A stretch of 64,000 bases of DNA, taken from assembly GCA_000378025.1 (NCBI GenBank), contig KB899087.1, positions 1-64,000 on the forward strand. The letters run 5' to 3'. Shown one piece after another: positions 19,094-34,392 of this stretch. The notes under the pieces were generated by a model, which saw only the letters and a program-made list of their open reading frames with translations, ran no database searches and was not told the DNA's origin. This stretch comes from Xanthobacteraceae bacterium 501b. Its GTDB lineage: Bacteria > Pseudomonadota > Alphaproteobacteria > Rhizobiales > Xanthobacteraceae. Every line of letters starts with the position of its first letter. Positions within the stretch are counted from its first letter, which is position 1. The translations under genes and the position numbers were made by a program.

Positions 19094-20227
19094 TCAAGAT
19101 TTAAGTATCTCTCGCGCGATGATGGTCCGCTGGATCTGGTTCGTGCCCTCGTAGATCTGCGTGATCTTCGCGTCGCGATAGAGCCGCTCGACTTCGAAGC
19201 CCCGAATGTAACCGCTGCCGCCAAAGATCTGCACCGCGTTGGCGGTCTGTGCGACGGCGATGTCGGAGGCGAAGCACTTCGCCATCGAGCAGGCCATGGT
19301 GGCGGGCTCGCCGGCATCGAATTTCTGCGCGGCGTCGTGGATCAGGAGGCGCGCGGCGGCGATGTCCTTGGCCATGTCGGCCAGCATCCACTGGATGCCC
19401 TGGAACTCGGCGATGGTCTGGCCGAACTGTTTGCGGGTCTTGGCGTAATCGACCGCCGCCTCAAGGCCGGCCTGCGCGATGCCGAGCGCGAGCGCCGCGA
19501 TGCCGATGCGGCCCTTGTCGAGCACGCTCATCATGATGTGGAAGCCGCGACCCTCGACTCCGAGCACAGAATCGCCGGGCAGAACGACATTGTCGAAGGT
19601 GAGCCCGCCGACCTGCGAGGCGCGCTGGCCCATCTTGTGTTCCTTTGGCCCGCGGGTCACGCCCGGCAAATTGAGGTCCACGACGAAGATGCTCATGCCG
19701 CGCTTGCCGGCCGCCTTGTCGGTGCGCGCCAGCACGAAGCCGACATCGGCGAGCGGCGCGTTCTGGATCCACAGCTTGCCGCCGTTCAGCACCCAGCCAT
19801 CCGCCGTGCGCTCGGCGACGGTGCGGATGCCGGATACGTCGGTGCCGGCTTCGGCTTCCGTGATACAGTAGGCGACGCGCTTGCGACCGGCCATGACCTC
19901 ACTGAGCCATGTCTCGCGCTGCGCCGGCGTGCCGTGGGCGGAGAGCAGCGTGCAGCCGAGTTCGACGAGGCCGCACTGATCGGCCACCGACGAATAGCCC
20001 TTGGAGAGTTCCTCCATTACCAGTGCATAGCCGAGTGCGTCGAAGCCGGCACCATCATGCTCGGGCGGCACGGTGATGCCGAACAGGCCGAGGCGGCCCA
20101 TTTCCTTGTAGATCTCGGCGGGGAAGCGCTCGTCGCGGTCGAGTTCCTCGGCGAGCGGGCGGACGACCTCCTGCGCGAAGCGGCGGGCCATGTCGCGGAT
20201 CTGCACATGGGTTTCGGACAAGGACAT
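19094..20227 (-). CDS. Acyl-CoA dehydrogenase
   Basis: A 377-residue flavoenzyme that introduces an alpha-beta double bond into an acyl-CoA and passes electrons to ETF. The full family layout is present: helical N-terminus (EVVRPLAEELDRDERFPAEIYKEMGRLG), the substrate/FAD segment YCITEAEAGTDVSG, the middle beta domain with LNGGKLWIQNAPLADV, and the C-terminal helical domain with RKQFGQTIAEFQGIQWMLADM and QIFGGSGYIRGFEVERLYRD. The catalytic base is Glu360 in QIYEGTNQIQR, where medium- and short-chain enzymes have it. Chain length and branching of the substrate cannot be read from sequence. The gene follows the TetR gene in the same direction and has its own operator at 20253-20266, matching the one before etfBA; its electron acceptor genes are therefore probably co-regulated. 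Confidence 0.93.
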   Translation of the reverse strand: MSLSETHVQIRDMARRFAQEVVRPLAEELDRDERFPAEIYKEMGRLGLFGITVPPEHDGAGFDALGYALVMEELSKGYSSVADQCGLVELGCTLLSAHGTPAQRETWLSEVMAGRKRVAYCITEAEAGTDVSGIRTVAERTADGWVLNGGKLWIQNAPLADVGFVLARTDKAAGKRGMSIFVVDLNLPGVTRGPKEHKMGQRASQVGGLTFDNVVLPGDSVLGVEGRGFHIMMSVLDKGRIGIAALALGIAQAGLEAAVDYAKTRKQFGQTIAEFQGIQWMLADMAKDIAAARLLIHDAAQKFDAGEPATMACSMAKCFASDIAVAQTANAVQIFGGSGYIRGFEVERLYRDAKITQIYEGTNQIQRTIIAREILKS

Positions 20228-20252
20228 GAGGCGCTCCCGGAGACGGTCTATA

Positions 20253-20266
20253 TAACTATCTAGTTA
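20253..20266. promoter_or_regulatory. TetR-type operator before the acyl-CoA dehydrogenase
   Basis: TAACTATCTAGTTA is a perfect 6-2-6 inverted repeat (TAACTA, two bases, TAGTTA) lying 26 bases upstream of the dehydrogenase ATG. The same arms occur at 21122-21135 before etfB. On the minus strand the similarity extends outward as AAGTAACTA-N2-TAGTTAT. A TATATA run just downstream could be part of the -10 box, so a bound repressor would block the promoter. Confidence 0.75.
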
Positions 20267-20317
20267 CTTACTTCTGTCGACGCGCCGACGCAAGTGGCGA
20301 GGGCGGCGTGGCCCGCG

Positions 20318-21010
20318 TCAGTCGCGGCAGATCAGCCGCAGGATCGTCTCGATGTTGAAGGCGAGGCGCTCGTCCAGGGCCTCGCGCGCATTGAGGTCGC
20401 GGTCATAGATGATCGAGCCGGTGAAGCGGTTGTTGAGGTAGTGGTAGCCCACCGCCGCGATGGTGAGGTTGACCTGCACCGGATCGAGACCAGGGCGGAA
20501 CGTGCCCGCCGCAACGCCGCGCTCGAGGATGGATCGGACCATCTCGATCAGCGGGGTGTGAAGCTCGCGGATCACGGTGGATTTCTTCAGGTAGCGTGCG
20601 CGGTAGAGGTTCTCGGTGTTCACCAGCGTCAGGAATTCCGGGTTCCGGATGAAGTAGTTCCAGGTGAAGGTGACGAGCTTCCGAATGGCATCCTCCGGGG
20701 CGAGGTCGTCGAGCTTGAGCTGCTGTTCGGCGGCGCGGATCGCGCCATAGGCATCGTCGAGAATGGCGACGTAGAGGCCCTCCTTGCTGCCGAAATAGTG
20801 GTAGATCATGCGTTTATTGGCCTTGGCCCGCAGCGCGATGGCGTCGACACGCGCGCCGGCGAGACCGAGGCGAGCGAACTCCGCCTTGGCGGCGTCGAGG
20901 ATCCGGCGGCGGGTGGCATCCGCCTCGCGCGGACGGGGCGCCGGGGCGGCGCTCTTGGCGGGCACGGCCTTGCCCGAAGTCTTGACGCCCGCGTCGTCCG
21001 TCACCCGCAT
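20318..21010 (-). CDS. TetR family transcriptional regulator
   Basis: A 230-residue one-component repressor. After a low-complexity Ala/Pro/Lys tail of about 30 residues comes a classical TetR helix-turn-helix (ATRRRILDAAKAEFARLGLAGARV, then AIALRAKANKRMIYHYFGSKEGL, about residues 32-80). The remainder is an alpha-helical ligand and dimerisation domain (LVTFTWNYFIRNPEFLTLVNTENL and a C-terminal NIETILRLI helix) resembling regulators of degradation pathways with a bulky C-terminal domain. It is divergent from etfBA and directly upstream of the acyl-CoA dehydrogenase. Both target promoters carry the same inverted repeat, so I infer that this protein controls them, with an acyl-CoA or related pathway intermediate as the probable inducer. 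The ATG at 21010 is the only good start. Confidence 0.9.
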   Translation of the reverse strand: MRVTDDAGVKTSGKAVPAKSAAPAPRPREADATRRRILDAAKAEFARLGLAGARVDAIALRAKANKRMIYHYFGSKEGLYVAILDDAYGAIRAAEQQLKLDDLAPEDAIRKLVTFTWNYFIRNPEFLTLVNTENLYRARYLKKSTVIRELHTPLIEMVRSILERGVAAGTFRPGLDPVQVNLTIAAVGYHYLNNRFTGSIIYDRDLNAREALDERLAFNIETILRLICRD

Positions 21011-21121
21011 GTTCCCCGCAGTTGCGACGGCGAAAGCACCGCTCCGCCGTGTTCTAGACCAATGCCTCGCCGCGCGCGACTACGTCGCGCGATCGCGGGC
21101 GGTTGCCAAACGCATACTAAG

Positions 21122-21135
21122 TAACTAACTAGTTA
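21122..21135. promoter_or_regulatory. TetR-type operator before etfBA
   Basis: TAACTAACTAGTTA is a perfect inverted repeat with two spacer bases, 42 bases upstream of the etfB GTG and 111 bases from the divergent tetR start. Its arms are identical to those of the site at 20253-20266. A TTGCCA at about 21103 could serve as -35, which would place the operator over the -10 region. Confidence 0.75.
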
Positions 21136-21177
21136 TTTATTGGAAGATCAAATCCCACCCCCGAGTAGGAGAGCCGC

Positions 21178-21924
21178 GTGAAGGCGCTGGTTGCGGTGAA
21201 GCGGGTCGTCGACCCCAATGTGAAGATTCGGCTGAAGGCCGACGGTTCGGGCGTCGAGCTCGCCGGCACCAGGATGGCAATGAACCCGTTCGACGAGATC
21301 GCGCTGGAAGAGGCGATCCGGCAGCGGGAAGCGGGGAAGGTCAGTGAGATCGTCGCGGTTTCCATCGGCAACTCCTTTGCCAGCGAAACGCTGCGCCATG
21401 CGCTCGCCATGGGCGCGGACCGCGCGATCCACCTGACCACCGAAGCCGCGCCCGAGTCGCTCGGCGTGGCGCGGCTGCTGGCAGAGATCGTGCGCCGCGA
21501 GGAGGCGCGCCTCGTGCTGCTCGGCAAGCAGGCGATCGACGACGACACCAACGCCACCGGCCAGATGCTGGCGGGGCTGCTCGGCTGGCCGCAGGCGACC
21601 TTCGCCTCCTCGCTGAATATCGAGGCCGATACCGCCCGCGTGATGCGCGAGATCGATGGCGGGCTGGAGACGTGGGAACTGCCGCTGCCACTGGTCGTTA
21701 CGGCGGATCTGCGCCTCAACGAGCCGCGCTACGCCTCGCTGCCCAGCATCATGAAGGCGAAGAAGAAGCTGATCGAGGCCATCGACGCGGGAAGCCTCGG
21801 CATCGACCTGTCGCCACGTCTGGAGCGGCTGTCGCTCACTGAACCGGCGGGCCGCACGGCCGGTGTCCGCGTGGGTTCGGTGACCGAACTCGCCGCCCAT
21901 ATCCGCACTCTCGCCAAGGGCTGA
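21178..21924 (+). CDS. etfB: Electron transfer flavoprotein subunit beta
   Basis: The 248-residue small subunit of ETF, which takes electrons from acyl-CoA dehydrogenases and delivers them to ETF-ubiquinone oxidoreductase. The start [20 protein letters not shown] is the standard opening of the family. Further signatures are [14 protein letters not shown], the [12 protein letters not shown] segment, [20 protein letters not shown] and, near the C-terminus, the [12 protein letters not shown] loop equivalent to the recognition loop that docks onto partner dehydrogenases. It starts at a GTG with an AGGAG seven bases upstream, and etfA follows after three bases. Because most bacteria hold a housekeeping ETF elsewhere, this pair under TetR control is probably dedicated to the adjacent catabolic dehydrogenase (inference). 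Confidence 0.95.
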
Positions 21925-21927
21925 ACG

Positions 21928-22884
21928 ATGACCACTTTGCTTATTGCCGATCACGACGGAGCGGCGCTTTCACCCGCCACGCTGCGTGCCGTCTCCGCCG
22001 CGCGCGCTCTCGGTACGCCGATCGACCTCGTGGTGCTTGGCGGCGCGCCTGAACTGGCCGCCAAGGGGGCAGAGTTCGCTGGCATTGACCGCGTGCTGCG
22101 CGTGGATGCGCCGGCAGACCTGTCCACCGAGGCGGTTGCGGCACTGCTGAAGTCGCTGGTAGCCGCGCGCGGAGCGGGCGCGGTCGTCGCCGCGGCGACC
22201 AGCACCGGCAAGGATGTGTTGCCGCGCCTCGCCAGCCTGCTGGATGTGATGATCGTCGCTGATGTCGTCGCCATCGAGGGGCCGAACGTGTTCACGCGGC
22301 CGATCTATGCCGGCAACGCGCTGGAACGCCTGCGTTCCCTCGATGGCGTGAAGGTGGTGACGGTGCGGGCCTCCGCCTTCCAGCCGGCGGCGCAGGGCGG
22401 GGCTGCCGCTCCGGTCGAGGAGATGTCGCGCGCGGAATGCGAGGCGATCATCGGCTCGGCGGTCCCGGCCAGGCTGGTGTCGCGCGAGGTCAGCGAGACT
22501 GAGCGGCCCGATCTCGGCTCGGCGCGGATCGTCGTGTCGGGCGGTCGCGCGCTGGGTTCGGCGGAGCGCTTCGACGAGGTGATCGCCCCGCTCGCGGACG
22601 TACTCGGCGCGGCCATCGGGGCGACGCGCGCGGCGGTGGATGCGGGCTATGCGCCGAACGACCTACAGGTCGGCCAGACCGGCAAGATCGTCGCGCCCGA
22701 TCTCTACATCGCTGCGGGCGTGTCGGGCGCGATCCAGCATCTCGCCGGCATGAAGGATTCGCGCGTGATCGTCGCGATCAACACCGATCCGGAAGCGCCG
22801 ATCTTCGCGGTGGCGGATTATGTGCTGGTCGGCGACGTGTTCAGCGTCGTGCCGGAGCTGACCAAGGCGCTGTCGGCATCTTGA
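21928..22884 (+). CDS. etfA: Electron transfer flavoprotein subunit alpha
   Basis: The 318-residue large ETF subunit. The N-terminal half ([24 protein letters not shown]) is the ETF alpha/beta-type fold shared with EtfB. The C-terminal half is the FAD domain with the conserved run [56 protein letters not shown] (described here in pieces) and [19 protein letters not shown], followed by the terminal [13 protein letters not shown]. All FAD-binding motifs are intact. It is translationally close to etfB (three-base gap) and is followed by a strong terminator shared with the convergent shikimate dehydrogenase-like gene. Confidence 0.95.
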
Positions 22885-22892
22885 TGCAAAAA

Positions 22893-22920
22893 GGCCGCCC
22901 GGACGAAGATCCGGGCGGCC
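22893..22920. terminator. Bidirectional intrinsic terminator after etfA
   Basis: GGCCGCCCGGA, a six-base loop (CGAAGA) and TCCGGGCGGCC form an 11-bp perfect stem. It is preceded by AAAAA and followed by ATTTTAT, so it can stop transcription from both the etfBA operon and the convergent gene that ends at 22937. Confidence 0.85.
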
Positions 22921-22936
22921 ATTTTATCGCAGCGGA

Positions 22937-23752
22937 TCAGACGAGGCCGAAGAAGGCCAAGTTTGCCTCGGCCTGGCCGACGAGGGCCTGATAGCCGACC
23001 TGAATAGGGCAACCCTTCTTCTCGGCGGCCTGAAGCAGCGGGGTGACTGGCGGTTTCATGATCATGTCGGTTACCAACTGGCCGGGGACGAGCGTCTCGG
23101 GATCAATCGGGTATGGGTCGTTCGAGGACATGCCGAGCGGCGTGGCGTTGGCGACGATGTCGAACTCGGCCGGGACCGGCGCGCCGGTGTCCACGGCGAG
23201 GCCGGGATAGGCGCCCCTCACGGCGGCGACGACACGCTCGGCCTTGGCGGTGTCGACATCGACGACGCGCAGGCGCGACACGCCCGCATCCGCCAGCGCG
23301 ACGGCAATCGCCGCACCCGCGCCACCCGCGCCGATCAGCAGTACCGAGCGGCCCTTGGGATCGCGATTGTTCGAAACGAGGCCGTTGACGTAGCCGACGC
23401 CATCAAAGGTGTCGCCGACCCAAGTGCCGTCCGCCTCGACGCGGATCGAGTTGACCGCGCCGACCAGCTTGGCGCGCGGCTCGACGCGGTCCACCACTTT
23501 CATCATGCGTGGCTTGTGCGGGATGGTCGGGATGATGCCCGCCAGATTCTTGAAGCTGCGCAGTCCGGCGACCGCGGCGTCGAAATCGGCGGCGGCGAAT
23601 TGCAGCGGCGCGAACACGACGTCGATGCCCTTTTCGGCGGTGATCTTGTTGTAGAGCTGGGTCGAGCGGACCTGCCGGATCGGGTCGCCGATCACGAAAT
23701 AGAGGCGGGTCTCTCCAGTGACGCTGAGGAGCGCGGGGCCGGCATCGGACAT
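22937..23752 (-). CDS. Shikimate dehydrogenase-like NAD(P)-dependent oxidoreductase
   Basis: A 271-residue member of the AroE/YdiB superfamily. The substrate domain shows IGDP at 21-24, the catalytic Lys80 in TIPHK, Asn101 in VGAVNSIR and Asp117 in TFDGVGY, all expected for the shikimate-dehydrogenase active site. The Rossmann domain carries GAGGAGAAIAVALADAG at about 142-158 and ends with QVGYQALVGQAEANLAFFG. The usual carboxylate-binding HSxSP motif is replaced by QVRST (27-31), so one of two serines is gone. This argues against housekeeping aromatic biosynthesis and for a catabolic paralogue acting on a shikimate-like or other hydroxy acid. It is 35 bases behind the SDR gene in the same direction, forming a two-gene operon that converges on etfBA. 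Confidence 0.85.
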   Translation of the reverse strand: MSDAGPALLSVTGETRLYFVIGDPIRQVRSTQLYNKITAEKGIDVVFAPLQFAAADFDAAVAGLRSFKNLAGIIPTIPHKPRMMKVVDRVEPRAKLVGAVNSIRVEADGTWVGDTFDGVGYVNGLVSNNRDPKGRSVLLIGAGGAGAAIAVALADAGVSRLRVVDVDTAKAERVVAAVRGAYPGLAVDTGAPVPAEFDIVANATPLGMSSNDPYPIDPETLVPGQLVTDMIMKPPVTPLLQAAEKKGCPIQVGYQALVGQAEANLAFFGLV

Positions 23753-23787
23753 GGTGACCTCCTGTTGTTATGGATCGTCGGCGCGCG

Positions 23788-24576
23788 TCAGAGGCGCGGC
23801 AGCAGCATCGCGCCGTCGACGCGGATGACCTGACCGGAGACATAGGGCAGGCCGCCGGCGGCGATGGACGCGGCGACCGTGCCGACATCCTGCGGCTGGC
23901 CGAGGCGCGGGATGAGGGTCAGGCCTTCCTCGTCGATCCGGCGCTGGTAGTCGGCGAGCGCGGGACGCGACATGTCGGTCTCGATGACGCCGGGCTGGAT
24001 GTCGAAGACATAGACCCCTTCGCGCGCGAGGCGGGCGGCGAAGACCTGGGCGATCATCGCGGTCGCCGCCTTCGACACGCAATACTCGCCGCGATTGATG
24101 GAGGCGGCGGTCGCGCTCACCGAGGAGACGAGCAGGATCGAGTAGTAGCCGGCGGGATCGCGCGGGCGCGTGACCATGCGGCGGGCGACCGCTTGGGTGA
24201 GGAAGAAGGCGGCCTTCGCGTTGTATAGCATGCAGTGGTCGTAGCTTTCGACCGAGGCCTCCAGCACGTCACCGCGCTTGAGCGCGCCAACGCCCGCATT
24301 GTTCACGAAAGTGGTGAGCGGGCCTAGCGCGGCCTCGGCCTCCTCGATCATCGCCTCATGGCGCGCCAGATCGCCGATTTCTCCGAGGACGACGGTGGCG
24401 CGGCGCCCGAGGGCGACGATCTCGTCGGCGGTGCGCTGCGCCTCAACCGCGTTCGAGCGGCCATGCACCGCCACGTCGAAGCCCTTGGCTGCAAGAGCGA
24501 GGGCGATGCCACGGCCGATGCCGCGGCTGGAGCCGGTGACGAAAGCAACGGGCCAGAAGGGGAAGGATTCGCTCAT
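23788..24576 (-). CDS. SDR family oxidoreductase (3-oxoacyl reductase-like)
   Basis: About 262 residues from the ATG at 24576; the frame is open further to 24648, but the shorter start places the family N-terminus correctly and frees an upstream inverted repeat. Classical short-chain dehydrogenase motifs are all present: cofactor loop TGSSRGIGRG, NNAGVGAL, the Ser of LLVSSVSATAAS with the YCVSK Tyr/Lys pair, and PGVIETDMS. It ends with GLPYVSGQVIRVDGAML, typical of FabG-like enzymes. It probably oxidises a 3-hydroxyacyl-CoA or a ring alcohol in the local pathway; the substrate is not determined. First gene of an operon with the shikimate dehydrogenase-like protein. Confidence 0.88.
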   Translation of the reverse strand: MSESFPFWPVAFVTGSSRGIGRGIALALAAKGFDVAVHGRSNAVEAQRTADEIVALGRRATVVLGEIGDLARHEAMIEEAEAALGPLTTFVNNAGVGALKRGDVLEASVESYDHCMLYNAKAAFFLTQAVARRMVTRPRDPAGYYSILLVSSVSATAASINRGEYCVSKAATAMIAQVFAARLAREGVYVFDIQPGVIETDMSRPALADYQRRIDEEGLTLIPRLGQPQDVGTVAASIAAGGLPYVSGQVIRVDGAMLLPRL

Positions 24577-24610
24577 GAAGGCACCTGCCGAGGGAAAGAG
24601 GGTCGTTTCG

Positions 24611-24635: not shown

Positions 24636-24648
24636 TCGGTTGCGTCAA

Positions 24649-25206: not shown

Positions 25207-26202
25207 ATGAAGCCAATCAAGCTCGCCGCCGCCGCCTTTTCCGCCTGTCTCCTGCTCGCCGGTACGATGAGCGTGCAGGCGCAGGAGAAAATCGTTCTGC
25301 ACGGCGCCAGCGCCTACAACAAGGACCACATCTTCAACCGCTCGATGACGAAATTCACCGATCTCGTGGCCAAGTACTACGGCAAGCCAGTCGAATTCGT
25401 GATGCACGAGAATGGCGAGCTCGGTAACGAGGCTGGCTATTTCGGCCTGATGACGCGTGGCACCTCGGTCGACTTCGCTGTCGTTGCCCCCGCCCACATG
25501 ACGCCGATCGCGCGCGGCGCCGGCATCCTCGACACGCCGTTCCTGTTCAAGGACGTCGACCAGTGGAAGAAGGCGACGGCGGGCGATGCCTTCAAGCCGA
25601 TCGTCGACGACATCGAGAAGCGAGGCAACGTCAAGATCCTCGGCCTCGGCGGCGGGGCGGAGCGCAACATCCTCTCCAAGAAGCCGGCCAGCGACCTCGC
25701 CGGCCTGCACGGCCTGAAGATGCGCGTGCAGGGCACGCCTATCCACGCCCGCGCCTTCCAGGCGGTGGGTATCGTGCCGAGCACTGTCGCCTATAACGAG
25801 ATCTACAACGCCATCCAGAGTGGCGTGATCGAGGCGCTCGAGAACGAGGCGTCCACCAACGCGCAGATGCGCTTCTACGAGGTCGCGCCGGAAGTCATCC
25901 GCACGCGCCACATCATCACCGTCCGCCCGCTGGTGTTCAGTGGCGCGACTTTCGAGCGCCTTCCCCCGGACCTGCAGGCCGCCGTGCTGAAGGCGGGCGA
26001 GGAAGCCGCGGCCTGGTGGCGCGAGACCGAGGCGGCCGAGGACGCGGCTATGCTCGAGAAGATGGCGGCTGAGGGCAAGGTGAAGCTCATTGAGTTTAAG
26101 GACGTCGAGGCGATGCACAAGAAGGTGCAGCCGGTGATCGACACCTATGCCAAGGAGCTCGGCGCCGAAGACGTTCTCAAGAACGTTCGCGCCATCAACT
26201 GA
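25207..26202 (+). CDS. dctP: TRAP transporter substrate-binding protein (DctP family)
   Basis: 331 residues. The signal peptide (MKPIKLAAAAFSACLLLAGTMSVQA, cleavage after VQA) sends it to the periplasm. The mature protein has the DctP pattern: KIVLHGASAYNKDH, a FAVVAPAHM strand, and LHGLKMRVQGTPIHARAFQAVGIVPSTVAYNEIYNAIQSGVIEALENE (in pieces), whose LKMRVQ-x-P Arg normally salt-bridges the substrate carboxylate. The ligand is therefore probably a carboxylic acid. Start chosen for its AGGAGGA ribosome site six bases upstream; an earlier TTG frame is not credible. Together with dctQ and dctM it forms a complete sodium-driven importer, probably for the acid degraded by the neighbouring CoA-dependent enzymes. 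Confidence 0.93.
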   Translation: MKPIKLAAAAFSACLLLAGTMSVQAQEKIVLHGASAYNKDHIFNRSMTKFTDLVAKYYGKPVEFVMHENGELGNEAGYFGLMTRGTSVDFAVVAPAHMTPIARGAGILDTPFLFKDVDQWKKATAGDAFKPIVDDIEKRGNVKILGLGGGAERNILSKKPASDLAGLHGLKMRVQGTPIHARAFQAVGIVPSTVAYNEIYNAIQSGVIEALENEASTNAQMRFYEVAPEVIRTRHIITVRPLVFSGATFERLPPDLQAAVLKAGEEAAAWWRETEAAEDAAMLEKMAAEGKVKLIEFKDVEAMHKKVQPVIDTYAKELGAEDVLKNVRAIN

Positions 26203-26215
26203 TCCCATCGCACAA

Positions 26216-26255: not shown

Positions 26256-26774
26256 ATGCGACGCCTGTTGCGGCTCTATCATCTGTTCCTTGTCGGAGTG
26301 CTCGGCCTGCTGACCGTGTTTCTGGTCATCCCCGTCGGGATGCAGGTTCTGGCCCGCTATGGCGAGATCGTCCCTAACTATCTCTGGACCGAGGAGCTTT
26401 CGCGCTTCGCTCTGATCTGGCTGGTCATGATCGGATCGGCGGTCGCCGTGCGCGAGAATACCAATTTCGACATCGACCTGCTGCCGACGCCCGCAACGCC
26501 GCTCGGCACGCTGATCGCACGCATGATCGTGCGGATCTGCGTGCTGGTGTTCGGCCTCGTCTTCCTATGGGGCAGCCTCGAATATACGCAGTTCGGGCTG
26601 CGCATGACGTCGGACATGTCGGACATCAATATGGGTTACGTCTACGGCGCCTTCCCGTTCGCCGCGATCGGCTGGATCGTCTTCACCCTTGAGGGGATCT
26701 ACGACGCCATCGCCGTCTACGGCCGCTCCGAGACCGCGCTCTCCCTGACGGAGGTCGAAAATGGGACCCGGTGA
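26256..26774 (+). CDS. dctQ: TRAP transporter small permease (DctQ family)
   Basis: 172 residues with four predicted transmembrane segments: LYHLFLVGVLGLLTVFLVIPVG, a central LIWLVMIGSAVAV, ARMIVRICVLVFGLVFLWGS and FPFAAIGWIVFTLEGIYDA (each shorter than shown domains in larger permeases). The conserved WTEELSRFALIWLVMIG block, placed after the first helix, is the hallmark of DctQ. The protein sits in the inner membrane and complexes with DctM. A GAGGG ribosome site lies nine bases before the ATG. Its end overlaps the start of dctM by 14 bases, so the two are translationally coupled. Confidence 0.92.
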   Translation: MRRLLRLYHLFLVGVLGLLTVFLVIPVGMQVLARYGEIVPNYLWTEELSRFALIWLVMIGSAVAVRENTNFDIDLLPTPATPLGTLIARMIVRICVLVFGLVFLWGSLEYTQFGLRMTSDMSDINMGYVYGAFPFAAIGWIVFTLEGIYDAIAVYGRSETALSLTEVENGTR

Positions 26775-28065
26775 GGTTGCCGTCATCCTGCTCGGGACCT
26801 TCATGGTCCTGCTGATCTTGCGCGTGCCGGTGGCGTTCGCGCTCGGCATCGCCTGCCTGCCGCCGCTGCTGTTCGACCCGCGCGTGTCGCTCTACGTGCT
26901 GATCGACCAGATGTACACGTCGTACAATTCGTTCCTGCTGCTCGCTGTGCCGTTCTTCCTGCTCGCGGCGAACGTGATGAACGCGGGTGGCATCACCGAC
27001 CGCATGCTGAACCTGTCGCGCACTATGGTGGGCCATTTCCCCGGTGCGCTGGCTCAGATGAACGTGGTGCTCTCCGTGCTGTTCGCCGGCGTCTCCGGAT
27101 CGGCCACGGCCGATGCGGCGAGCCAGAGCAAGATCTTCATCCCCGCCATGGTGAAGGAGGGCTACGACCGCAGCTTCTCCGTCGCCAATACGGCGGTGTC
27201 CTCGGTGCTTTCGGTGGTCATTCCGCCGAGCATCCTGATGGTGATCTGGGCGGGCACGCTTTCCATCTCGGTCGGCTCGCTCTACATCGGCGGTATCCTG
27301 CCTGGCCTGATGCTGTGTCTCGCCATGATGGTGACGGTCCACGTCTATGCGAAGGTGCGCCACTATCCGCGCTTCGCCCGGTCGAGCTTCGTCGACTTCC
27401 TCAAGGCCACTGTGATCGCGGTGCCGGCGCTGTTCCTGCCGTTCATCATCGCGGGCGGAAAGATCTTCGGCTGGTTCACCGCGACCGAGTCGGCCGCTAT
27501 CGCGGGCGTCTACGCGATCTTCCTCGCGGTGTTCGTGTTCCGCGAGATGGACCTGAAGCAACTGTTCGCGACCTTCATCGATACCGGGCGGTTCTCGGCG
27601 GTGTCACTGTTCTGCCTCGGCACCGCGTCGGTGTTCGGCTGGCTGCTCGCCTATTACAAGGTTCCAAACGCCCTGCTCGCCAGTGCGGTCGAATGGGACA
27701 TGGGCATCACCGCGACGGGCTTCTTCATTGCGGCGGTGTTCCTGGTCGTCGGCTGCTTCCTCGATGCGATCCCCGCCATCGTCATCGTCGGTGCGATCCT
27801 GCAGCCGCTCACGGCCCATGCCGGCATGGATCCGCTGCACTACGCGCTGATCGGCATTGTCTCGCTCGCCTTCGGCCTCGTGACGCCGCCCTATGGACTG
27901 TGCCTGCTGATCGCGGCGGCGTCAGCCGCAGCGCCGCTCAGATCGGTCATCAAGGATACGCTGATCCAGATCCTGCCGCTACTGCTGGTGCTGGTGACGG
28001 TGATCATGCTGCCGCAGCTCTATCTCTACCTTCCGCACCTTGTCGGGCCCGATCTCGGTCCCTGA
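26761..28065 (+). CDS. dctM: TRAP transporter large permease (DctM family)
   Basis: 434 residues, about twelve hydrophobic helices. It begins with the family pattern LLILRVPVAFALGIACL, followed by PFFLLAANVMNAGGITDR, the loop VLFAGVSGSATADAASQSK and AVIPPSILMV-like SVVIPPSILMVIWAG, then the second inverted half ending in AFGLVTPPYGLCLLIAA. These are the ion- and substrate-pathway signatures of DctM. It is the energy-coupled channel of the TRAP system. Start ATG follows GGAGG and lies inside dctQ. An 18-bp terminator follows the stop by 15 bases, so the operon is dctPQM only. Confidence 0.94.
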   Translation: MGPGEVAVILLGTFMVLLILRVPVAFALGIACLPPLLFDPRVSLYVLIDQMYTSYNSFLLLAVPFFLLAANVMNAGGITDRMLNLSRTMVGHFPGALAQMNVVLSVLFAGVSGSATADAASQSKIFIPAMVKEGYDRSFSVANTAVSSVLSVVIPPSILMVIWAGTLSISVGSLYIGGILPGLMLCLAMMVTVHVYAKVRHYPRFARSSFVDFLKATVIAVPALFLPFIIAGGKIFGWFTATESAAIAGVYAIFLAVFVFREMDLKQLFATFIDTGRFSAVSLFCLGTASVFGWLLAYYKVPNALLASAVEWDMGITATGFFIAAVFLVVGCFLDAIPAIVIVGAILQPLTAHAGMDPLHYALIGIVSLAFGLVTPPYGLCLLIAAASAAAPLRSVIKDTLIQILPLLLVLVTVIMLPQLYLYLPHLVGPDLGP

Positions 28066-28079
28066 TACGGCGCAGCCCA

Positions 28080-28126: not shown

Positions 28127-28191
28127 CGGCTGGCTGGAGGACCGTAGATGTTGCGATCGACGACAGGACGCCGCGCTAGAGCAGATTCGAC

Positions 28192-28833
28192 TTAATCCGG
28201 GTCATATCCGGCAGCGTCGAAATAGTGCCGACATTCCTCTGGCGTGAAAGCGGAGAGGCAATCGGCGACGACGGACCATAGTTCGTCGATGGTTCGGGCT
28301 GCGGCCTTTCTGAGCAGGGCCTTGAGCTTCGAGAAGGCCATCTCGATGGGGTTGAAGTCTGGCGAGTAGGGCGGCAGGAACAGGAGCCGCGCGCCGACCT
28401 TCTCGATGGCCTCGCGCACGCCGCTGATCCTGTGAGCGGGCAGATTGTCCATGACCACGATGTCGCCGGGGCGAAGCTCGGGCGCGAGCACTTGCTCTGC
28501 ATAGGCCAGGAAGGCCGGACCGTTCATCGGTCCGTCGAGCAGCATCGGCGCCGTCATGCCGTCCAGTCGCAGGCCGGCGGTAAAGGTGGTCGTCTTCCAA
28601 TGGCCGTGTGGAACGGCCGCCCGGCATCGCTCGCCGCATGGCGCCCTGCCGCGCAAGCGGGCCATCTTCGTGGATGCCGCGGTCTCATCGATGAAGATCA
28701 GCCTCGCGGGGTCGAGGTCAAGTTGGCCGTCAAACCAGGCTATGCGGCGGCGCAGGACATCGGGGCGCTGCTGCTCGGCGGCGTGCGCCGTCTTTTTTTG
28801 AACGTGATGTCGCGCCGGTCGAGGAACAGCCAC
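28192..28833 (-). CDS. IS630 transposase, downstream frame (DDE catalytic part)
   Basis: A 213-residue frame with the catalytic core. Motifs are [21 protein letters not shown] (first Asp, in IDET; split here for length), [11 protein letters not shown] (second Asp) and [19 protein letters not shown] with the terminal acidic residue, the classic IS630/Tc1-mariner pattern. The N-terminal residues before [11 protein letters not shown] are not part of the mature fusion; the real junction is at the A7 tract, giving a fused protein of about 345 residues. It appears undamaged. Confidence 0.88.
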
Positions 28834-29168
28834 ACCGTCGAGGGGGCGGCCCGCACGCCGCGCTCGGCTGCAAGGCGCTCCCCGATCTCGGCCAGCGTGA
28901 TGTCCGGCACCTCCTCGATGAGGCCGAGAATGAAGGCCTCATGTGCATCGAGCTTCGAGCGCGACGGCTGGCCCTGCTTGCGCGCTTCCATCTCGCCGGT
29001 CTCGCGATAGCGGCGATACCAAGCCCCGGCCGTCGAGATCCCGATCGAGAAGCGACGCGCTGCCTCCCGCGTTGAAGCCCCGTCTTCGATCGCCGCAATC
29101 AACCGACCGCGAAGGTCGCCACTCAGGCTCCTCGTCATCATCACCTCCTGGCAAATCACCAGCAGCAA
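28740..29168 (-). CDS. IS630 transposase, upstream frame (DNA-binding part)
   Basis: The first frame, 142 residues (a start at a downstream [15 protein letters not shown], is likely). It contains two helix-turn-helix units: [32 protein letters not shown] (given as a region, residues about 24-55) and the [15 protein letters not shown] winged segment with [18 protein letters not shown]. These bind the inverted repeats. Beyond the A7 run at 28793-28799 this frame runs into a short unrelated tail, whereas a -1 shift leads into the catalytic frame. Production of the full transposase thus appears to need programmed frameshifting, as known for many IS630 elements. Confidence 0.85.
28793..28799 (-). 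other. Programmed -1 frameshift site (A7)
   Basis: Seven consecutive A on the minus strand in TTC AAA AAA AGA (frame 1). A slip of one base back gives AAG ACG GCG and enters the catalytic frame. This is the usual arrangement for IS630 frameshifting; a sequencing or mutation artefact is less likely because both frames are otherwise intact. Confidence 0.7.
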
Positions 29169-29229
29169 TGAATCAGACAGCGAACGACCCGGGAATCCTC
29201 AAACCGACTCTGCGTTCATCGAAGATGCT

Positions 29230-30255
29230 CTAGCGTGTGCCGCAGGAGGCGCGCACGATCAGGTTCGGGCGCAGGATAACGTTCTCATGCGTCTTGCCTG
29301 GCGCCTTGATTCGCTCCAACACCAGTTCGGCGGCGCGGCGACCCGTCTCATGGGCGTGCAGCGCCACCGTCGTCAGGGCCGGATAGGCGAGTTCCGCCTC
29401 CGAGGTTCCGTCGATGCCGACGATGGCGAACTGCCTGCCGGGCTCCAGACCACGCCGGCGCAAGCCGTGCATGAGCGCGATGGCGACATTGTCGTTGTAG
29501 CCGATCGCGGCGGTCGGCGGCTCGGGTAGGTCGAGCACCTTGTTGAGGTCGGAGATGGCGTTGGCGCGCGTCGGCCGGCTTTCGACGCATAGGGCGGGAT
29601 CGAAAGCGTTGCCGGCGCGCTGCAGCGCTTCCTGATAACCGGCGACGCGATCGATCCGGGAGGGGCTTTTCGCCTCGCCGCCGAGAAAGGCGATCCGACG
29701 ATGGCCGAGTTCGATGAGATGGCGCGTCGCGATGCGTCCGGCGAGGCGGTTGTCGGGGCCGACATAATCGACATCGGCATCCGGAGGCCGGCGAATGGCG
29801 ACGCAGATCGGGGTGCCGCCCGCTGCGATGCGCTCAAGGAATTCCGGCTTCGTCTGCGAGGCCGGGAAGATGATAAGCCCGCCGATGCCGTGCTCTTCCA
29901 GCGACTGGTAAACGCGTGACTGGCGCTCGATCTCGTCACCGGTCTCGACGAGGAAGACGAGAAATTCCGTGCCTTCCAGCCCCTTCTGCACGCCCGCCGT
30001 CATTTCCGCGAAGAACGGGTTGCAGATGTCGTTGATGATGAGGCCGATGGCCTGCGAAGTCTGGCGGCGAAGGTTTGCGGCGCTACGATTGTACTTGTAG
30101 CCGAGCTTCCTTATTGCCTCTTCGACGCGGTTTCGCGTCTCGGCGGAGATGCGCTCGTTTTTCTGCAGGACGAGCGACACCGTCGAGGGCGACACGCCGG
30201 CCGCCTTCGCGATGTCAATGATGGTGACCCGCCGCAGCGGCGCGATCTCATTCAT
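29230..30255 (-). CDS. LacI family transcriptional regulator
   Basis: 341 residues. The N-terminal lac-type helix-turn-helix and hinge are clear: VTIIDIAKAAGVSPSTVSLV (residues about 9-28), RVEEAIRKLGYKYNRSAANL. The rest is a periplasmic-binding-protein-like effector domain (IGLIINDICNPFFAEM, GLIIFPAS, YVGPDNRLAGRIATRHLI, GHRRIAFLGG, DRVAGYQEAL, AIGYNDNVAIALMHGL, IVGIDGTSEAELAYPALTT). It lies eight bases after the enoyl-CoA hydratase stop and is probably co-transcribed with it. The perfect palindrome at 31115-31130, in the divergent promoter region, is its most likely operator. The stop codon TAG straddles the IS630 boundary but is unchanged. Confidence 0.93.
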   Translation of the reverse strand: MNEIAPLRRVTIIDIAKAAGVSPSTVSLVLQKNERISAETRNRVEEAIRKLGYKYNRSAANLRRQTSQAIGLIINDICNPFFAEMTAGVQKGLEGTEFLVFLVETGDEIERQSRVYQSLEEHGIGGLIIFPASQTKPEFLERIAAGGTPICVAIRRPPDADVDYVGPDNRLAGRIATRHLIELGHRRIAFLGGEAKSPSRIDRVAGYQEALQRAGNAFDPALCVESRPTRANAISDLNKVLDLPEPPTAAIGYNDNVAIALMHGLRRRGLEPGRQFAIVGIDGTSEAELAYPALTTVALHAHETGRRAAELVLERIKAPGKTHENVILRPNLIVRASCGTR

Positions 30256-30263
30256 TGCCGGTG

Positions 30264-31040
30264 TCAGCGCCCATTGAACTGCGGTGCCCGCTTCTCCTTG
30301 AGGGCGCGGATGCCCTCGCGGCCGTCCTCGGTGCCAGCCGCGGCCATGCCCGCCAGGAGTTCGAACGTTGCATCGCTGCCAATGCCGACACCTCCGTTGA
30401 GAATCGATTTAGCGATCTGCGTCGACACGGGTGCCATGCTGGCGATCTCGCGGGCAACGTCCTTTGCCTTGGCGAGCGCCTGTCCGGGCTTGGCGATATC
30501 GGTCGCCAAGCCCCACGACGTAGCGGTTGCAGCATCGATCCGCCGCCCCGTCAAGGCCATGAGTTTGGCGCGGGGCAGGCCTATGAGCCGGCTAAGTCTC
30601 TGTGTTCCGCCCCAGCCGGGAACGGTGCCGATGGAGGTTTCCGGCAGCGCGACCAGCGCCTCGGCATCGATGACGCGAATGTCGGCGGACAAAGCTAGCT
30701 CCAGCCCGCCACCGAACGCCATGCCGTGAATGGCTGCGACCACCGGCAGGCGGCAGGTCTCGATGCGGTCGAAGACGCGGTGTCCATGGAGAATCCAGCT
30801 GCGGCGGACGTCTTCCGGGCTCAGGCTTCCCCAGATGTTCACGTCGGCGCCGACGCAAAAGGCGCGCCCCTCGCCGGAGAGGACGATCACACGGATGTCC
30901 GGAATGTCCTCGATTCGGCTAATGGCCGCGCCGATTTCGGCGATCATCTGCGGCGTTAGTGCGTTCAATTTGGCGCTGCGGGTTAGGAGGAGGGTGGCGA
31001 CGGTGCCATCCACGTCGATCTTCACGAATTCCATTTCCAT
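30264..31040 (-). CDS. Enoyl-CoA hydratase/isomerase family protein
   Basis: 258 residues, crotonase fold. The oxyanion-hole segments are visible: SAKLNALTPQMI and GEGRAFCVGADV, then HGMAFGGGLELALSADIRV. Both catalytic glutamates of true enoyl-CoA hydratases are kept, one in GGLELA and one in ALPETSIGTVPGWGGTQRL. The C-terminal trimerisation helices end with GIRALKEKRAPQFNGR. It should hydrate a 2-enoyl-CoA, or a ring-containing analogue, in the cytoplasm. The gene is the first of an operon with lacI and is divergent from the CoA-transferase operon, sharing a 137-base promoter region with a palindromic operator. Confidence 0.92.
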   Translation of the reverse strand: MEMEFVKIDVDGTVATLLLTRSAKLNALTPQMIAEIGAAISRIEDIPDIRVIVLSGEGRAFCVGADVNIWGSLSPEDVRRSWILHGHRVFDRIETCRLPVVAAIHGMAFGGGLELALSADIRVIDAEALVALPETSIGTVPGWGGTQRLSRLIGLPRAKLMALTGRRIDAATATSWGLATDIAKPGQALAKAKDVAREIASMAPVSTQIAKSILNGGVGIGSDATFELLAGMAAAGTEDGREGIRALKEKRAPQFNGR

Positions 31041-31114
31041 CCCCTCGATGTGTGGCCCAGCTGCGGACTCAGATTGATTTCACGCGTGCGCCTTGACGAC
31101 AAACCAACCAGATG

Positions 31115-31130
31115 AGTAGAACGTTCTACT
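31115..31130. promoter_or_regulatory. Perfect 16-bp palindrome, probable LacI-family operator
   Basis: AGTAGAACGTTCTACT is a perfect palindrome with a central CG, the form typical of LacI-family operators. It lies 74 bases upstream of the enoyl-CoA hydratase ATG (minus) and 47 bases upstream of the CoA-transferase ATG (plus). One bound dimer could therefore control both the hydratase-lacI and the CoA-transferase operons. Confidence 0.75.
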
Positions 31131-31177
31131 AATGATGCCAAGGGCGGCGTTCAACCCCGCACAGGCGAGGAAGCAAA

Positions 31178-32728
31178 ATGAAAATCGTCACCAAGGAGGA
31201 GCTTCAGTCCATCCTGGCTGGGCTGAAGGAGGGTGCGACCGTCGCTACCAGCGGTGCGGGCGGTGGCCTGATGGAGCCGGACGAGGCGCTGAGCTGCTTC
31301 GAGGCGGCGTATCTGGAGCAGGGCGCACCGCGCAACATCACGCTCGTCCATGCGCTCGGCCTTGGTGATCGCCGCCGTCGCGGCATCAACCGTTTCGCCC
31401 ATGAGGGTATGGTAAAGCGCGTCATCGGCGGCCACTGGGTCTGGTCGCCCACCATGCTGCGCATGGCGCAGGAGAACAAGATCGAGGCCTACTGCCTGCC
31501 GGGCGGCGCGATCATGCACCTGTTCCGCGAAATCGGGGCGGGCCGTCCGGGCCTGTTCACCCATGTCGGCCTCGGCACTTTTGTGGATCCGCGTCAGCAG
31601 GGCGGGCGCTGCAATTCGATCTCGACCGAGGACATCGTCGAGCTGATGCAAATCGATGGCAAAGACGTGCTGCGCTACAAGCCGTTCCCGGTCGATGTCG
31701 GCGTCATTCGCGGCACCTACGTCGACGATGTCGGCAATATCAGCGCCAGCGAGGAGCCTGCCGACCTCGACGCCTATTCGCTCGCCCTCGCGGCGCGCAA
31801 TTCCGGTGGCGTCGTCATCGCGCAGGTGCGCGAGAAGGTCGCGCGCGGCACGTTTCGTCCGCGCGAGGTGACCGTTCCCGGCAATCTCGTCGATTACGTC
31901 GTTGTCTGCCCCGAGCAGCAGCAGACCTATCAGGGCGGCTACCACCTCTCGCTTGCCGGTCTCGAGCACGGCGATGTCGTGCGCAATTCCGGCAAGGACG
32001 ACGTCGCGCGCCATATCGTTGCCGCCCGCGCGGCCGAAGAGCTGATCACCGGCTCGACGCTGAATTTCGGCTTTGGCATGTCCGCCGATGTCGCGGAGAT
32101 CATCTTCAAGACCGGGCGTCAGGACGAGTTCTGGTTCACCATTGAACAGGGCATCCATGGCGGCGACCTGCTGACCGGCGACATGTTCGGCATCGCGGCG
32201 AACCCGATGGGCATCCTGTCCTCGCCCGAGCAGTTCGACCTCTATAGTGGCGGCGGCCTCGACATGACCTTCCTCGGTCTCGCCGAGATGGACGGGTTCG
32301 GCAACGTGAACGTGTCGCATTTCGCAGGCCAGATCAGCGGGCCCGGCGGCTTCATCGATATCACCCAAAAGGCGAAGGCGGTCGTGTTCTGCGGCAGCTT
32401 CGACACCAAGGGCGCGCGCTCGCGCGTCGTCGACGGCAAGCTTGTGATTGAGCGTCAGGGCGATGTGCGCAAGCTCGTGGACCGCGTCGCGGGCATCACA
32501 TTCAGCGGCGAGCAGGCTATCGCGGAAGGCAAGAAGGTCGTCTACGTGACCGAGCGCGCCGTGTTCCAGTTGACCCCGGAAGGCGTCGAACTGATCGAGG
32601 TGGCTCCGGGCATCGACATCCAGACCGACATTCTCGACCGCATCGGCTTCACCCCGATAACCCGCGAGCCGAAGATCATGTCCGCCCGCTTCTTCGAGGG
32701 CGCCGCGCCCGTCGACAGCGCCGCCTGA
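31178..32728 (+). CDS. Acyl-CoA:carboxylate CoA-transferase, family I, fused alpha and beta
   Basis: 516 residues, both CoA-transferase halves in one chain as in propionate/acetate CoA-transferases. The alpha half has LKEGATVATSGAGGGLMEP and the glycine-rich CLPGGAIMHLFREIGAG; the beta half contains FWFTIEQGIHGGDLL, where Glu323 is the expected residue that forms the glutamyl-CoA thioester, and then SGGGLDMTFLGLAEMD and GFGNVNVSHF. It moves CoA from a donor such as acetyl- or succinyl-CoA to the imported acid and so activates it without ATP. The GAGGAAG ribosome site supports the start. It leads an operon with the DUF993 (16-base gap) and MaoC genes. Confidence 0.9.
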   Translation: MKIVTKEELQSILAGLKEGATVATSGAGGGLMEPDEALSCFEAAYLEQGAPRNITLVHALGLGDRRRRGINRFAHEGMVKRVIGGHWVWSPTMLRMAQENKIEAYCLPGGAIMHLFREIGAGRPGLFTHVGLGTFVDPRQQGGRCNSISTEDIVELMQIDGKDVLRYKPFPVDVGVIRGTYVDDVGNISASEEPADLDAYSLALAARNSGGVVIAQVREKVARGTFRPREVTVPGNLVDYVVVCPEQQQTYQGGYHLSLAGLEHGDVVRNSGKDDVARHIVAARAAEELITGSTLNFGFGMSADVAEIIFKTGRQDEFWFTIEQGIHGGDLLTGDMFGIAANPMGILSSPEQFDLYSGGGLDMTFLGLAEMDGFGNVNVSHFAGQISGPGGFIDITQKAKAVVFCGSFDTKGARSRVVDGKLVIERQGDVRKLVDRVAGITFSGEQAIAEGKKVVYVTERAVFQLTPEGVELIEVAPGIDIQTDILDRIGFTPITREPKIMSARFFEGAAPVDSAA

Positions 32729-32744
32729 GAGAAGGACACTTTCC

Positions 32745-33941
32745 ATGGATATCATTCTTCCCGTCTCGAGCGGTGCTCTCGAGCGCTACACGCTGAAGGC
32801 CGGCGAGCCGCTTCCCCGTCGCGCCGCCGGGCCGTTCAACCGCATCGCCTATTCGGCTGCCCATGTGACGGTGAACCCGTTTGCGGACATCGATCCGTGG
32901 CTGAAGACGGCGGTCGACTGGGACGCGACGCTCTCCTATCGCCGCTATCTGTGGGATCTCGGCCTCGGCGTCGCCGAAGCCATGGACACTGCGCAGCGCG
33001 GCATGGGCGTCGACTGGCCGACCTCGCTCGAACTCATCACCCGCACCGCTGCGGAAGCCCGTGCCTATGGCGCGAACGCGCTGCTCGCGAGCGGCGTGGG
33101 CACCGACCAACTCGCCAATGGCCGTGACTACACGATCGACGAGATCATCAAAGCGTACGAGGAGCAGTGCACAGCGATCCACAAGGCCGGCAGCCGCTTT
33201 ATCCTGATGGCGAGCCGTGCGCTAGCGCGCGCTGCGGCGCGTCCGGAAGACTACGCCCGCGTCTACGACCGGATCCTCTCGCAGAGCCCGGAGCCCGTGA
33301 TCCTGCACTGGCTGGGCGAGATGTTCGATCCCGCGCTCGCCGGCTATTGGGGCCATGACGACCACTGGAAGGCGATGGACGTCTGCCTTGAGATCATCAA
33401 GGCCAACGCCTCGAAGGTCGCCGGCATCAAGGTGTCGCTGCTCTCCGAAGAGAAGGAAGTATCGATGCGCGCCCGGCTGCCAGCGGGCGTCGAGATGTAT
33501 ACCGGCGACGACTTCAACTACCCGACCCTGATCGCAGGTGACGGCACGCACCATTCGCAGGCGCTGCTGGGCATTTTCGACGCCATCGCGCCGGCCGCCA
33601 GCGCCGCGCTCACCGCGCTCGCGAAGGGCGACCGTGCCGCCTATGACCGGCTGATGGATCCTACCGTGCCGCTGTCGCGCCACATCTTCAAAGCGCCGAC
33701 GCAGTTCTACAAGACCGGCGTCGTGTTCCTCGCGTGGCTGAACGGCTTTCAGAGCCATTTCACCCTCGCGAACGGGCAGGAGAGTGCGCGCGCGACGGTG
33801 CATCTCGCCGAACTGTTCCGCCTAGCCGATCAGGCCGGGGTCCTTTTGGAGTCGGAACTCGCCTGCACGCGGATGTGCAATCTGATGGCGGTGCGCGGCG
33901 TCGAGCCGGGCGTTGCCAGTGCCCGCGCGGCAGCTGAGTGA
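32745..33941 (+). CDS. DUF993 family protein (TIM-barrel, dihydrodipicolinate synthase-like)
   Basis: 398 residues. The sequence matches my memory of the DUF993 family, annotated as dihydrodipicolinate synthase-like: SAAHVTVNPFADIDPW at the N-terminus, AMDTAQRGMGVDWPTSLELI, LASGVGTDQLANG, PVILHWLGEMFDPALAGYWG, and a lysine-containing strand KVAGIKVSLLSEEKE (the Lys in AGIKVS is in the position where class I aldolases form a Schiff base). It is therefore a candidate C-C lyase or aldolase. No activity is established for the family as far as I know. The gene lies between the CoA-transferase and MaoC genes with short gaps, which places its reaction inside a CoA-ester degradation route. Confidence 0.8.
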   Translation: MDIILPVSSGALERYTLKAGEPLPRRAAGPFNRIAYSAAHVTVNPFADIDPWLKTAVDWDATLSYRRYLWDLGLGVAEAMDTAQRGMGVDWPTSLELITRTAAEARAYGANALLASGVGTDQLANGRDYTIDEIIKAYEEQCTAIHKAGSRFILMASRALARAAARPEDYARVYDRILSQSPEPVILHWLGEMFDPALAGYWGHDDHWKAMDVCLEIIKANASKVAGIKVSLLSEEKEVSMRARLPAGVEMYTGDDFNYPTLIAGDGTHHSQALLGIFDAIAPAASAALTALAKGDRAAYDRLMDPTVPLSRHIFKAPTQFYKTGVVFLAWLNGFQSHFTLANGQESARATVHLAELFRLADQAGVLLESELACTRMCNLMAVRGVEPGVASARAAAE

Positions 33942-33954
33942 CGGGAGCTACCTG

Positions 33955-34392
33955 ATGAGCGTGTTCCACGTTGAGGTCGATCAGAGCTGGCGCTTCCGCA
34001 AGACGGTGTCGGAAGCCGATGTCTACGGCTTCGCCGGTATCACCGGCGACCTGTCGCCCAACCATGTCGACGAGGCCGCGATGCGCGAGACGCCCTATGG
34101 CGGGCGCATTGCCCATGGCGCGCTGCTCGTCGGCTACATGTCGGCCTGCTCGACCATGGCCTGCGCGGACGCTCGCGACGGCGGCGAGACGCCGGTGTCG
34201 CTCGGCTATGACCGCGTGCGCTTTCTCGAAGGCGTGCGCATCGGCGAGACGATCGCGGTGACCTACAAGATCGCCCGCGTCGATACCGAGGCGCGCCGAT
34301 CCTATGCCGAGGTTGAAGTCCATGTCGTCGACAGCGGCAAGCTCGCGGCCGTGGCGACCCACATCCTAAAATGGGTGCCGAACGCGGCCTGA
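33955..34392 (+). CDS. MaoC family (R)-specific enoyl-CoA hydratase-like protein
   Basis: 145 residues from the ATG at 33955; GGGAG nine bases upstream supports this start over an upstream in-frame GTG/ATG at 33913. It is a single hot-dog domain. The hydratase-2 motif is present: DVYGFAGITGDLSPNHVDE supplies the catalytic Asp and His, and GGRIAHGALLVGYMSA matches the conserved loop. It would hydrate a 2-enoyl-CoA with the opposite stereochemistry to the crotonase-type hydratase at 30264. The presence of both in one island suggests two different hydrations, or a hydration and a dehydration, in the same pathway. Last gene of its operon. Confidence 0.9.
   Translation: MSVFHVEVDQSWRFRKTVSEADVYGFAGITGDLSPNHVDEAAMRETPYGGRIAHGALLVGYMSACSTMACADARDGGETPVSLGYDRVRFLEGVRIGETIAVTYKIARVDTEARRSYAEVEVHVVDSGKLAAVATHILKWVPNAA

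Follow-up and report, generated by a model that had tools for sequence, protein, structure and literature searches.

Enzymes of the DHDPS/N-acetylneuraminate lyase (NAL) superfamily carry a Schiff-base lysine at the end of the sixth strand of their barrel. For the DUF993 family, a structure (4dnh) was solved in 2012, that of SMc04132 of Sinorhizobium meliloti. In this study we analyzed a block of genes at positions 19094–34392 of a 64,000-nucleotide stretch of DNA from Xanthobacteraceae bacterium 501b (contig KB899087.1, positions 1 to 64,000; hereafter the window). The block encodes a DUF993 protein that is 62% identical to SMc04132 and has the same fold, together with enzymes of CoA chemistry. 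An initial annotation had proposed that the block breaks down a cyclic hydroxy acid. Our own reading, which we hold with evenly balanced confidence, is that of a catabolic cluster, controlled by LacI and here accompanied by TetR, for an acid that is hydroxylated and probably derives from a sugar, in which the DUF993 protein would cleave a keto acid before the CoA steps.

The DUF993 protein is, in its predicted structure, a (β/α)8 barrel of the DHDPS fold. The AlphaFold2 model, made with 13 sequences, had a pLDDT of 85.5; when it was used as a Foldseek query, 4dnh was followed by DHDPS/NAL-type entries alone among the best 50 of 203 matches (E up to 0.001). The matches to DHDPS/NAL entries had a probability of 1.00, E values of about 1e-9 to 1e-8, TMt of 0.69–0.84, and 11–15% identity. 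Lys229, in the motif GIK-x-SLL, lies on the sixth barrel strand of the model (225–231) and was invariant in all 148 aligned DUF993 sequences (four of 152, shorter than 375 residues, were omitted). From the fold and the lysine, our reasoned guess is that the protein acts on a keto compound through a Schiff base, as a lyase or a dehydratase; they make it plausible as the C–C cleaving enzyme that the initial annotation proposed.

DUF993 genes were found in 25 of the 289 genomes sampled in the class and in 36 of the 398 sampled in the phylum. Neighbors were counted for the best 80 of 593 DUF993 relatives in species genomes, 7 of these loci being shorter than 10 kb and others one-sided. A Gfo/Idh/MocA dehydrogenase was present in 75 of the 80, a xylose-isomerase-like barrel in 73, a TetR protein related to that of the window in 60, an enolase-like protein in 47, an ABC importer ATPase in 41, and a permease in 32; a CoA-transferase was matched in none of the 80. 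In this commonest context the DUF993 protein is 58–67% identical to that of the window, and the TetR protein 42–56%. The window differs from it in that no Gfo/Idh protein, isomerase-like barrel, enolase-like protein or such ABC permease was matched there, and CoA genes are present instead. One ABC ATPase match in the window, at 41182–41874, looks unrelated. The levoglucosan pathway was considered as a model for the context with Gfo/Idh and isomerase-like proteins.

We classed loci with Gfo/Idh and no CoA-transferase nearby as type 1, and loci with a CoA-transferase within 10.5 kb as type 2. The 152 distinct DUF993 sequences, window included, comprised 115 of type 1, 20 of type 2, and 17 of neither; 20 of 152 is not a frequency, because the set mixes loci picked through DUF993 with loci chosen for a nearby or similar CoA-transferase (L156–L162). 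In the class sample, in which the neighborhoods of all 26 loci from 25 genomes were examined, three were of the CoA type (the window, L192 and L193). In the phylum sample, a CoA-transferase lay within 10.5 kb in 9 of the 25 neighborhoods examined besides the window (of 36 genomes), and just beyond that distance in G388. Since a CoA-transferase is missing from the surroundings of most DUF993 genes gathered, the likeliest substrate of the enzyme is a free keto acid or keto sugar; probably it is a free keto (sugar) acid, and the CoA steps come afterward. Action outside CoA chemistry, which the initial annotation had named as evidence against its proposal, is thus probable for the commonest context (115 of 152 sequences), while its other such point, a gene set not conserved elsewhere, does not describe what was found.

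The gene content of the 20 type-2 loci was as follows (the row for the window was set by hand from the Pfam and NCBIfam results): enoyl-CoA hydratase (ECH) in 16, aldehyde dehydrogenase (ALDH) in 11, LacI in 11, isomerase-like barrel in 8, short-chain dehydrogenase/reductase (SDR) in 7, shikimate-dehydrogenase-like (SDH-like) protein in 6, MaoC in 5, and acyl-CoA dehydrogenase (ACAD) in 3. The five clusters with MaoC all have the SDH-like protein and lack ALDH. Eleven of the 20 loci have a sugar-binding protein like UgpB/GtsA, which in L163 and L165 matched at 23% identity only. GMC and aldehyde dehydrogenases are common in sister clusters with sugar-type ABC transporters, many of which also have LacI. 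Five further loci (L231, L232, L233, L235 and L258) have GMC dehydrogenases, SDR, DUF993, LacI, glycerate 2-kinase and a sugar ABC importer, and perhaps deal with the product in another way.

To follow the pairing of DUF993 with a CoA-transferase, trees were made of DUF993 (102 sequences; three shorter than 370 residues and two thirds of the type-1 loci among L027–L106 were omitted) and of the CoA-transferase (37 sequences; the short L161 was dropped). In the DUF993 tree the window pairs with L164 (support 100/100) inside a set with three type-1 sequences and one other (98/98); L163, L165 and L168 form another lineage of type 2; and the third comprises 21 sequences (96/75), of which 15 are type 2. 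By the starred branches, the type-2 label must have changed at least four times. The transferases linked to DUF993 occupy three places in the CoA-transferase tree, where at least four changes are likewise required. The CoA-transferase of the window is sister to that of L156, whose DUF993 protein belongs to the third DUF993 lineage, whereas the DUF993 protein of the window is nearest to relatives of the Gfo/Idh type; this suggests that the pair in the window was joined anew. The best reading of the trees is repeated joining of DUF993 and CoA-transferase genes in separate lineages, although this is no proof, because each change may be a gain or a loss, and both trees contain flagged long branches. 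The window would also be accounted for if DUF993 had been replaced in an already existing cluster. Under joining or replacement, the two proteins appear to be useful to each other. By rough arithmetic from 71 transferase matches above 300 bits in 199 genomes, chance pairing would occur at about 0.2% per 21-kb neighborhood.

Every gene named by the initial annotation was identified in the block by Pfam and, for ten proteins, by NCBIfam, which holds no model for DUF993 (Table 1). To its list we add the TetR and LacI regulators and an IS630-like transposase, which is an insertion and lies outside the pathway. The left half consists of ACAD and TetR, EtfB–EtfA, the SDH-like protein and SDR, and DctPQM. 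In the right half, ECH–LacI leftward and CoA-transferase–DUF993–MaoC rightward share an intergenic stretch of 137 bp, and 16 bp separate the CoA-transferase from DUF993. The same block was collinear in a congener (G291; stretches L164 and L261) at 81–86% DNA identity, with ACAD, SDH-like, SDR, DctPQM, LacI, ECH, CoA-transferase, DUF993 and MaoC genes kept and no match to 20240–22946 (TetR, EtfB, EtfA) or 28145–29231 (the insertion). All 11 genes compared with the congener were under purifying selection (dN/dS 0.10–0.28, dS 0.56–0.86). Among 101 relatives searched, 35 had DUF993; neighborhoods were examined for 29 of them besides the window (all but G321, G328, G337, G346 and G380), and G291 was the sole genome among the 29 with this form of the block. 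Related gene sets were thus found together elsewhere, in G291 and in other CoA-type clusters. As a separate observation, G291 contains two different DUF993/CoA-transferase clusters (L164 and L165), about 108 kb apart and from different tree lineages.

Because the right half has a shared promoter with an operator-like site, a collinear counterpart in the congener, and a DUF993–CoA-transferase pairing that recurs, we concluded that it is one functional unit; most of the remaining block probably belongs to the same unit. A chance gene neighborhood was ruled out by the collinear congener, the purifying selection, and the recurrent pairing in both trees. The electron-transfer flavoprotein (ETF), which the initial annotation assigned to the pathway as its own, is not a constant part of the cluster, because the G291 block has no EtfBA. 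Nor is its presence here accidental, because a single cluster in L158 combines ACAD (72%), EtfB (64%), EtfA (55%) and TetR (59%) with a CoA-transferase, SDR and DUF993.

The operator-like site AGTAGAACGTTCTACT is a perfect palindrome in the divergent promoter, and its inner 14 bases are kept in L164. Its 12-base core, TAGAACGTTCTA, has a single occurrence in the 5.1-Mb genome when one mismatch is allowed. The first matches were already known when the consensus TRGAACGTTCYA was widened; the window palindrome and its conservation in L164 are the only findings made independently of them. TRGAACGTTCYA occurred in 12 of 24 CoA/GMC-type loci, which exclude the window and L161 (shuffled mean 0.05), versus none of the 24 type-1 loci tested, which were hand-picked from the 115. 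In all seven of the loci L221–L227 it lies between DUF993 and a divergent LacI gene. The LacI protein of the window is 28–58% identical to its best kin in related clusters, 43–46% in L221–L227 and L230, and 85% in the congener. LacI would be the protein that binds the site in the divergent promoter.

The CoA arm fits the working up of a short hydroxy acid, as judged from residues and closest relatives. The CoA-transferase aligned over its full length with YdiF (2ahu, 402 bits), placing Glu323 on YdiF Glu333, which we take to be the catalytic Glu. ECH keeps Glu114 and Glu134, presumably the catalytic pair, and its best solved relative is 5zai, a 3-hydroxypropionyl-CoA dehydratase. The nearest NCBIfam model to ACAD is acryloyl-CoA reductase (AcrC; 379 bits, under the equivalog cut-off of 640), and its Glu360, in IYEGT, is presumably at the catalytic place of short-chain ACADs. 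In the two clusters with TRAP transporters (the window and L164), GMC and ALDH were not matched in the stretch searched, as expected if the acid itself is imported.

We found no support for a hydroaromatic substrate, which the initial annotation had suggested from the SDH-like protein. This protein fell under the cut-off of every AroE/YdiB model among the best 25 of 30 NCBIfam families (best AroE/YdiB score 171 bits versus 252; TIGR00507, 154 versus 200). It keeps Lys80 and Asp117, which we take to be the catalytic pair; of the two serines of AroE that we assume to bind the carboxylate, one is replaced by Val28, as in the nearest solved relative, 4k28. A 5-ketofructose reductase belongs to the same family, and several sister clusters have sugar transporters. 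ACAD scored 309 and 237 bits against the NCBIfam models of cyclohexane-carboxyl-CoA dehydrogenase (cut-offs 650 and 575), and no ring hydrolase was found by Pfam among the block proteins scanned. Nothing in the sequences of the block points to ring chemistry.

In the pathway that we propose, whose substrate class, order of steps and individual reactions we infer from gene content, conservation and the predicted fold, the TRAP system would import the acid, and the SDH-like protein, SDR, or both would oxidize a hydroxyl to a ketone. Lys229 of DUF993 would form a Schiff base with this ketone, followed by C–C cleavage (or elimination of water). The YdiF-type transferase would then pass CoA to one of the fragments, presumably a short hydroxy or oxo acid, and the crotonase, MaoC and ACAD/ETF would pass the CoA ester into central metabolism. 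No described pathway with this combination was found in the literature searched, in agreement with the initial annotation.

Several results weigh against this proposal. To our knowledge, no activity is known for any DUF993 protein. HHalign and hmmsearch gave no significant sequence link between DUF993 and DHDPS, so that their kinship is not proved by sequence comparison alone; in the best alignment, itself not significant, Lys229 falls opposite the lysine of the GVK motif in the DHDPS encoded by this genome. DHDPS (PF00701) was absent from the Pfam matches of DUF993 at E up to 10, a range in which the HMMER filters drop most matches above about 0.1. The changes of pairing in both trees may include losses, and a CoA-transferase was not matched in the stretch fetched of L231–L233, L235 and L258. 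A search of this genome, run with no positive control, did not detect the xylose-isomerase-like barrel that accompanies most DUF993 genes. The argument for import of the acid is weakened by L163, L165 and L168, which lack ALDH although their transporter is of the ABC and not the TRAP kind. As to the operator-like site, the reversed control pattern likewise occurs once in the genome; with up to three mismatches allowed, the window has one match, and 47 of 100 shuffles also had one or more. Because shuffles and control match as well, the weight rests on the perfection, place and conservation of the palindrome. The site occurs once in the window and was not found before ACAD, SDH-like/SDR or the TRAP genes, and in L160 the match to TRGAACGTTCYA sits inside the SDR gene.

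Other explanations were weighed against the same data. Instead of being a C–C lyase, DUF993 may dehydrate or isomerize a keto sugar acid, with the CoA arm taking the whole carbon chain. The DHDPS superfamily includes KDG/5-keto-4-deoxyglucarate dehydratase, which counts for this possibility; however, glycerate 2-kinase, present in six non-type-1 loci (L192, L231, L232, L233, L235 and L258) versus none of the 115 type-1 loci, points weakly to a C3 fragment, and we regard the possibility as somewhat unlikely. We also doubt, slightly more firmly, that the block consists of two modules lying side by side under a common regulator for the same environment, one for a sugar acid (DUF993, SDH-like and SDR) and one for short-chain acyl-CoA, e.g., from 3-hydroxypropionate to propionyl-CoA. 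Such a division would suit the closest kin of ECH and ACAD (the latter under its cut-off), the loci L157 and L159, which have a CoA-transferase and no DUF993 within 20 kb, and the five loci with DUF993 and GMC/SDR but no CoA-transferase nearby; it does not suit the recurrent association of DUF993 and transferase in separate lineages or the common promoter with its operator-like site. The view closest to the initial annotation, in which the CoA-transferase and dehydrogenase of the cluster itself would turn an alicyclic or hydroaromatic acid into a CoA thioester for DUF993 to cleave or condense, seems to us quite improbable. DUF993 does lie directly after the CoA-transferase and before MaoC, in a pairing that recurs; but DHDPS-fold enzymes, as far as is known, act on free keto acids, 115 of the 152 DUF993 genes are accompanied by Gfo/Idh and no nearby CoA-transferase, the SDH-like site is altered, and sister clusters have sugar transporters and LacI.

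Returning to the cleavage of a free keto acid ahead of the CoA steps, we offer a wider proposal tentatively, leaning slightly against it: that DUF993 founds a new functional family of Schiff-base lyases in the DHDPS fold, and that, paired with CoA-transferase, crotonase and ACAD, it makes up an undescribed route for sugars or sugar acids that runs through a keto acid, its cleavage, and the entry of one piece through acyl-CoA chemistry and not through sugar phosphates. Within this proposal, the several origins of the pairing would mean that the two halves share an intermediate. If true, it would add a CoA-linked breakdown of sugar acids in alphaproteobacteria. For DUF993, so far a family of unknown function, a short list of assays follows from its two gene contexts, the conserved lysine and the operator-like site.

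Table 1. Features of the block and the basis of their identification
Feature	Position	Strand	Basis or remark
Acyl-CoA dehydrogenase (ACAD)	19094-20227	-	Pfam; 90% identity in congener stretch L261
TetR-family regulator	20318-21010	-	Best NCBIfam model RutR, 63 bits versus cut-off 368
EtfB, ETF beta subunit	21178-21924	+	Pfam
EtfA, ETF alpha subunit	21928-22884	+	Pfam
SDH-like oxidoreductase	22937-23752	-	Pfam, NCBIfam
SDR, PRK12745 type	23788-24576	-	NF009386, 309 bits versus cut-off 250
DctP, TRAP solute-binding protein	25207-26202	+	Pfam
DctQ, TRAP small membrane protein	26256-26774	+	Pfam
DctM, TRAP large membrane protein	26761-28065	+	Pfam
IS630-like transposase, two reading-frame pieces, in DctM/LacI gap	28192-29168	-	Open reading frames; family by reading of the sequence
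LacI-family regulator	29230-30255	-	Pfam
Crotonase/enoyl-CoA hydratase (ECH)	30264-31040	-	Pfam
Palindromic operator-like site AGTAGAACGTTCTACT	31115-31130	none	Between ECH-LacI and CoA-transferase-DUF993-MaoC
CoA-transferase, YdiF/propionate CoA-transferase type	31178-32728	+	Pfam
DUF993 protein	32745-33941	+	Pfam PF06187, 597 bits versus cut-off 24
MaoC-like hydratase	~33955-34392	+	Pfam; start uncertain, TTG 33913 or, likely, ATG 33955

At 1036–16257 (minus strand) lies a single frame of 5073 residues that reads as a giant autotransporter-like protein: its passenger units are repeated many times, and its C terminus resembles a barrel. Transposases flank the region on both sides, one of the DUF772/DDE type by Pfam at 17173–18573 (plus strand) and one that reads like the IS3 family at 39281–40186 (plus strand); with the IS630-like element this makes three insertion sequence copies in about 23 kb. 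What looks like a separate unit at 35296–38581 contains an AraC/DJ-1 regulator (Pfam) and, by reading, an MmgE/PrpD-like protein and an osmoprotectant-type binding protein.

The literature searched, which left out subscription papers, contained no paper with DUF993 or its accessions (PF06187, IPR009334, 4DNH). By gene order, smc04396 is a putative member of the CoA-type cluster of S. meliloti. The S. meliloti homologs appeared in this literature as table entries or were mentioned in passing. One paper reports that dextrin induces smc04396, which it describes as a putative sugar transporter gene (PMC4960864). In a PhaR/AniA study, SMc04133 is listed as a putative oxidoreductase, and SMc04132, SMc04133, SMc04390 and SMc04391 have negative values in one table (PMC12542648); these entries hint that the four genes are under common control with poly-3-hydroxybutyrate (PHB) metabolism.

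Among known systems, the DHDPS/NAL superfamily shares with DUF993 the barrel fold, and Lys229 is a candidate counterpart of its lysine at the end of strand 6. The strand-5 position of the superfamily Tyr seems by reading to be His188-Trp189 in DUF993. The enzymes that convert 3-hydroxypropionate to propionyl-CoA (CoA-transferase, 3-hydroxypropionyl-CoA dehydratase and acryloyl-CoA reductase) include the closest named kin of ECH and ACAD, but ACAD is far under the equivalog cut-off of the reductase. We know of no other example in which a LacI-type catabolic cluster joins a DHDPS-fold enzyme to acyl-CoA chemistry. DUF993 is of a different family from BKACE (DUF849), to which it had no Pfam match; in the BKACE routes of 2-deoxyribonate and carnitine, a barrel C–C lyase whose function was once unknown is tied to CoA chemistry.

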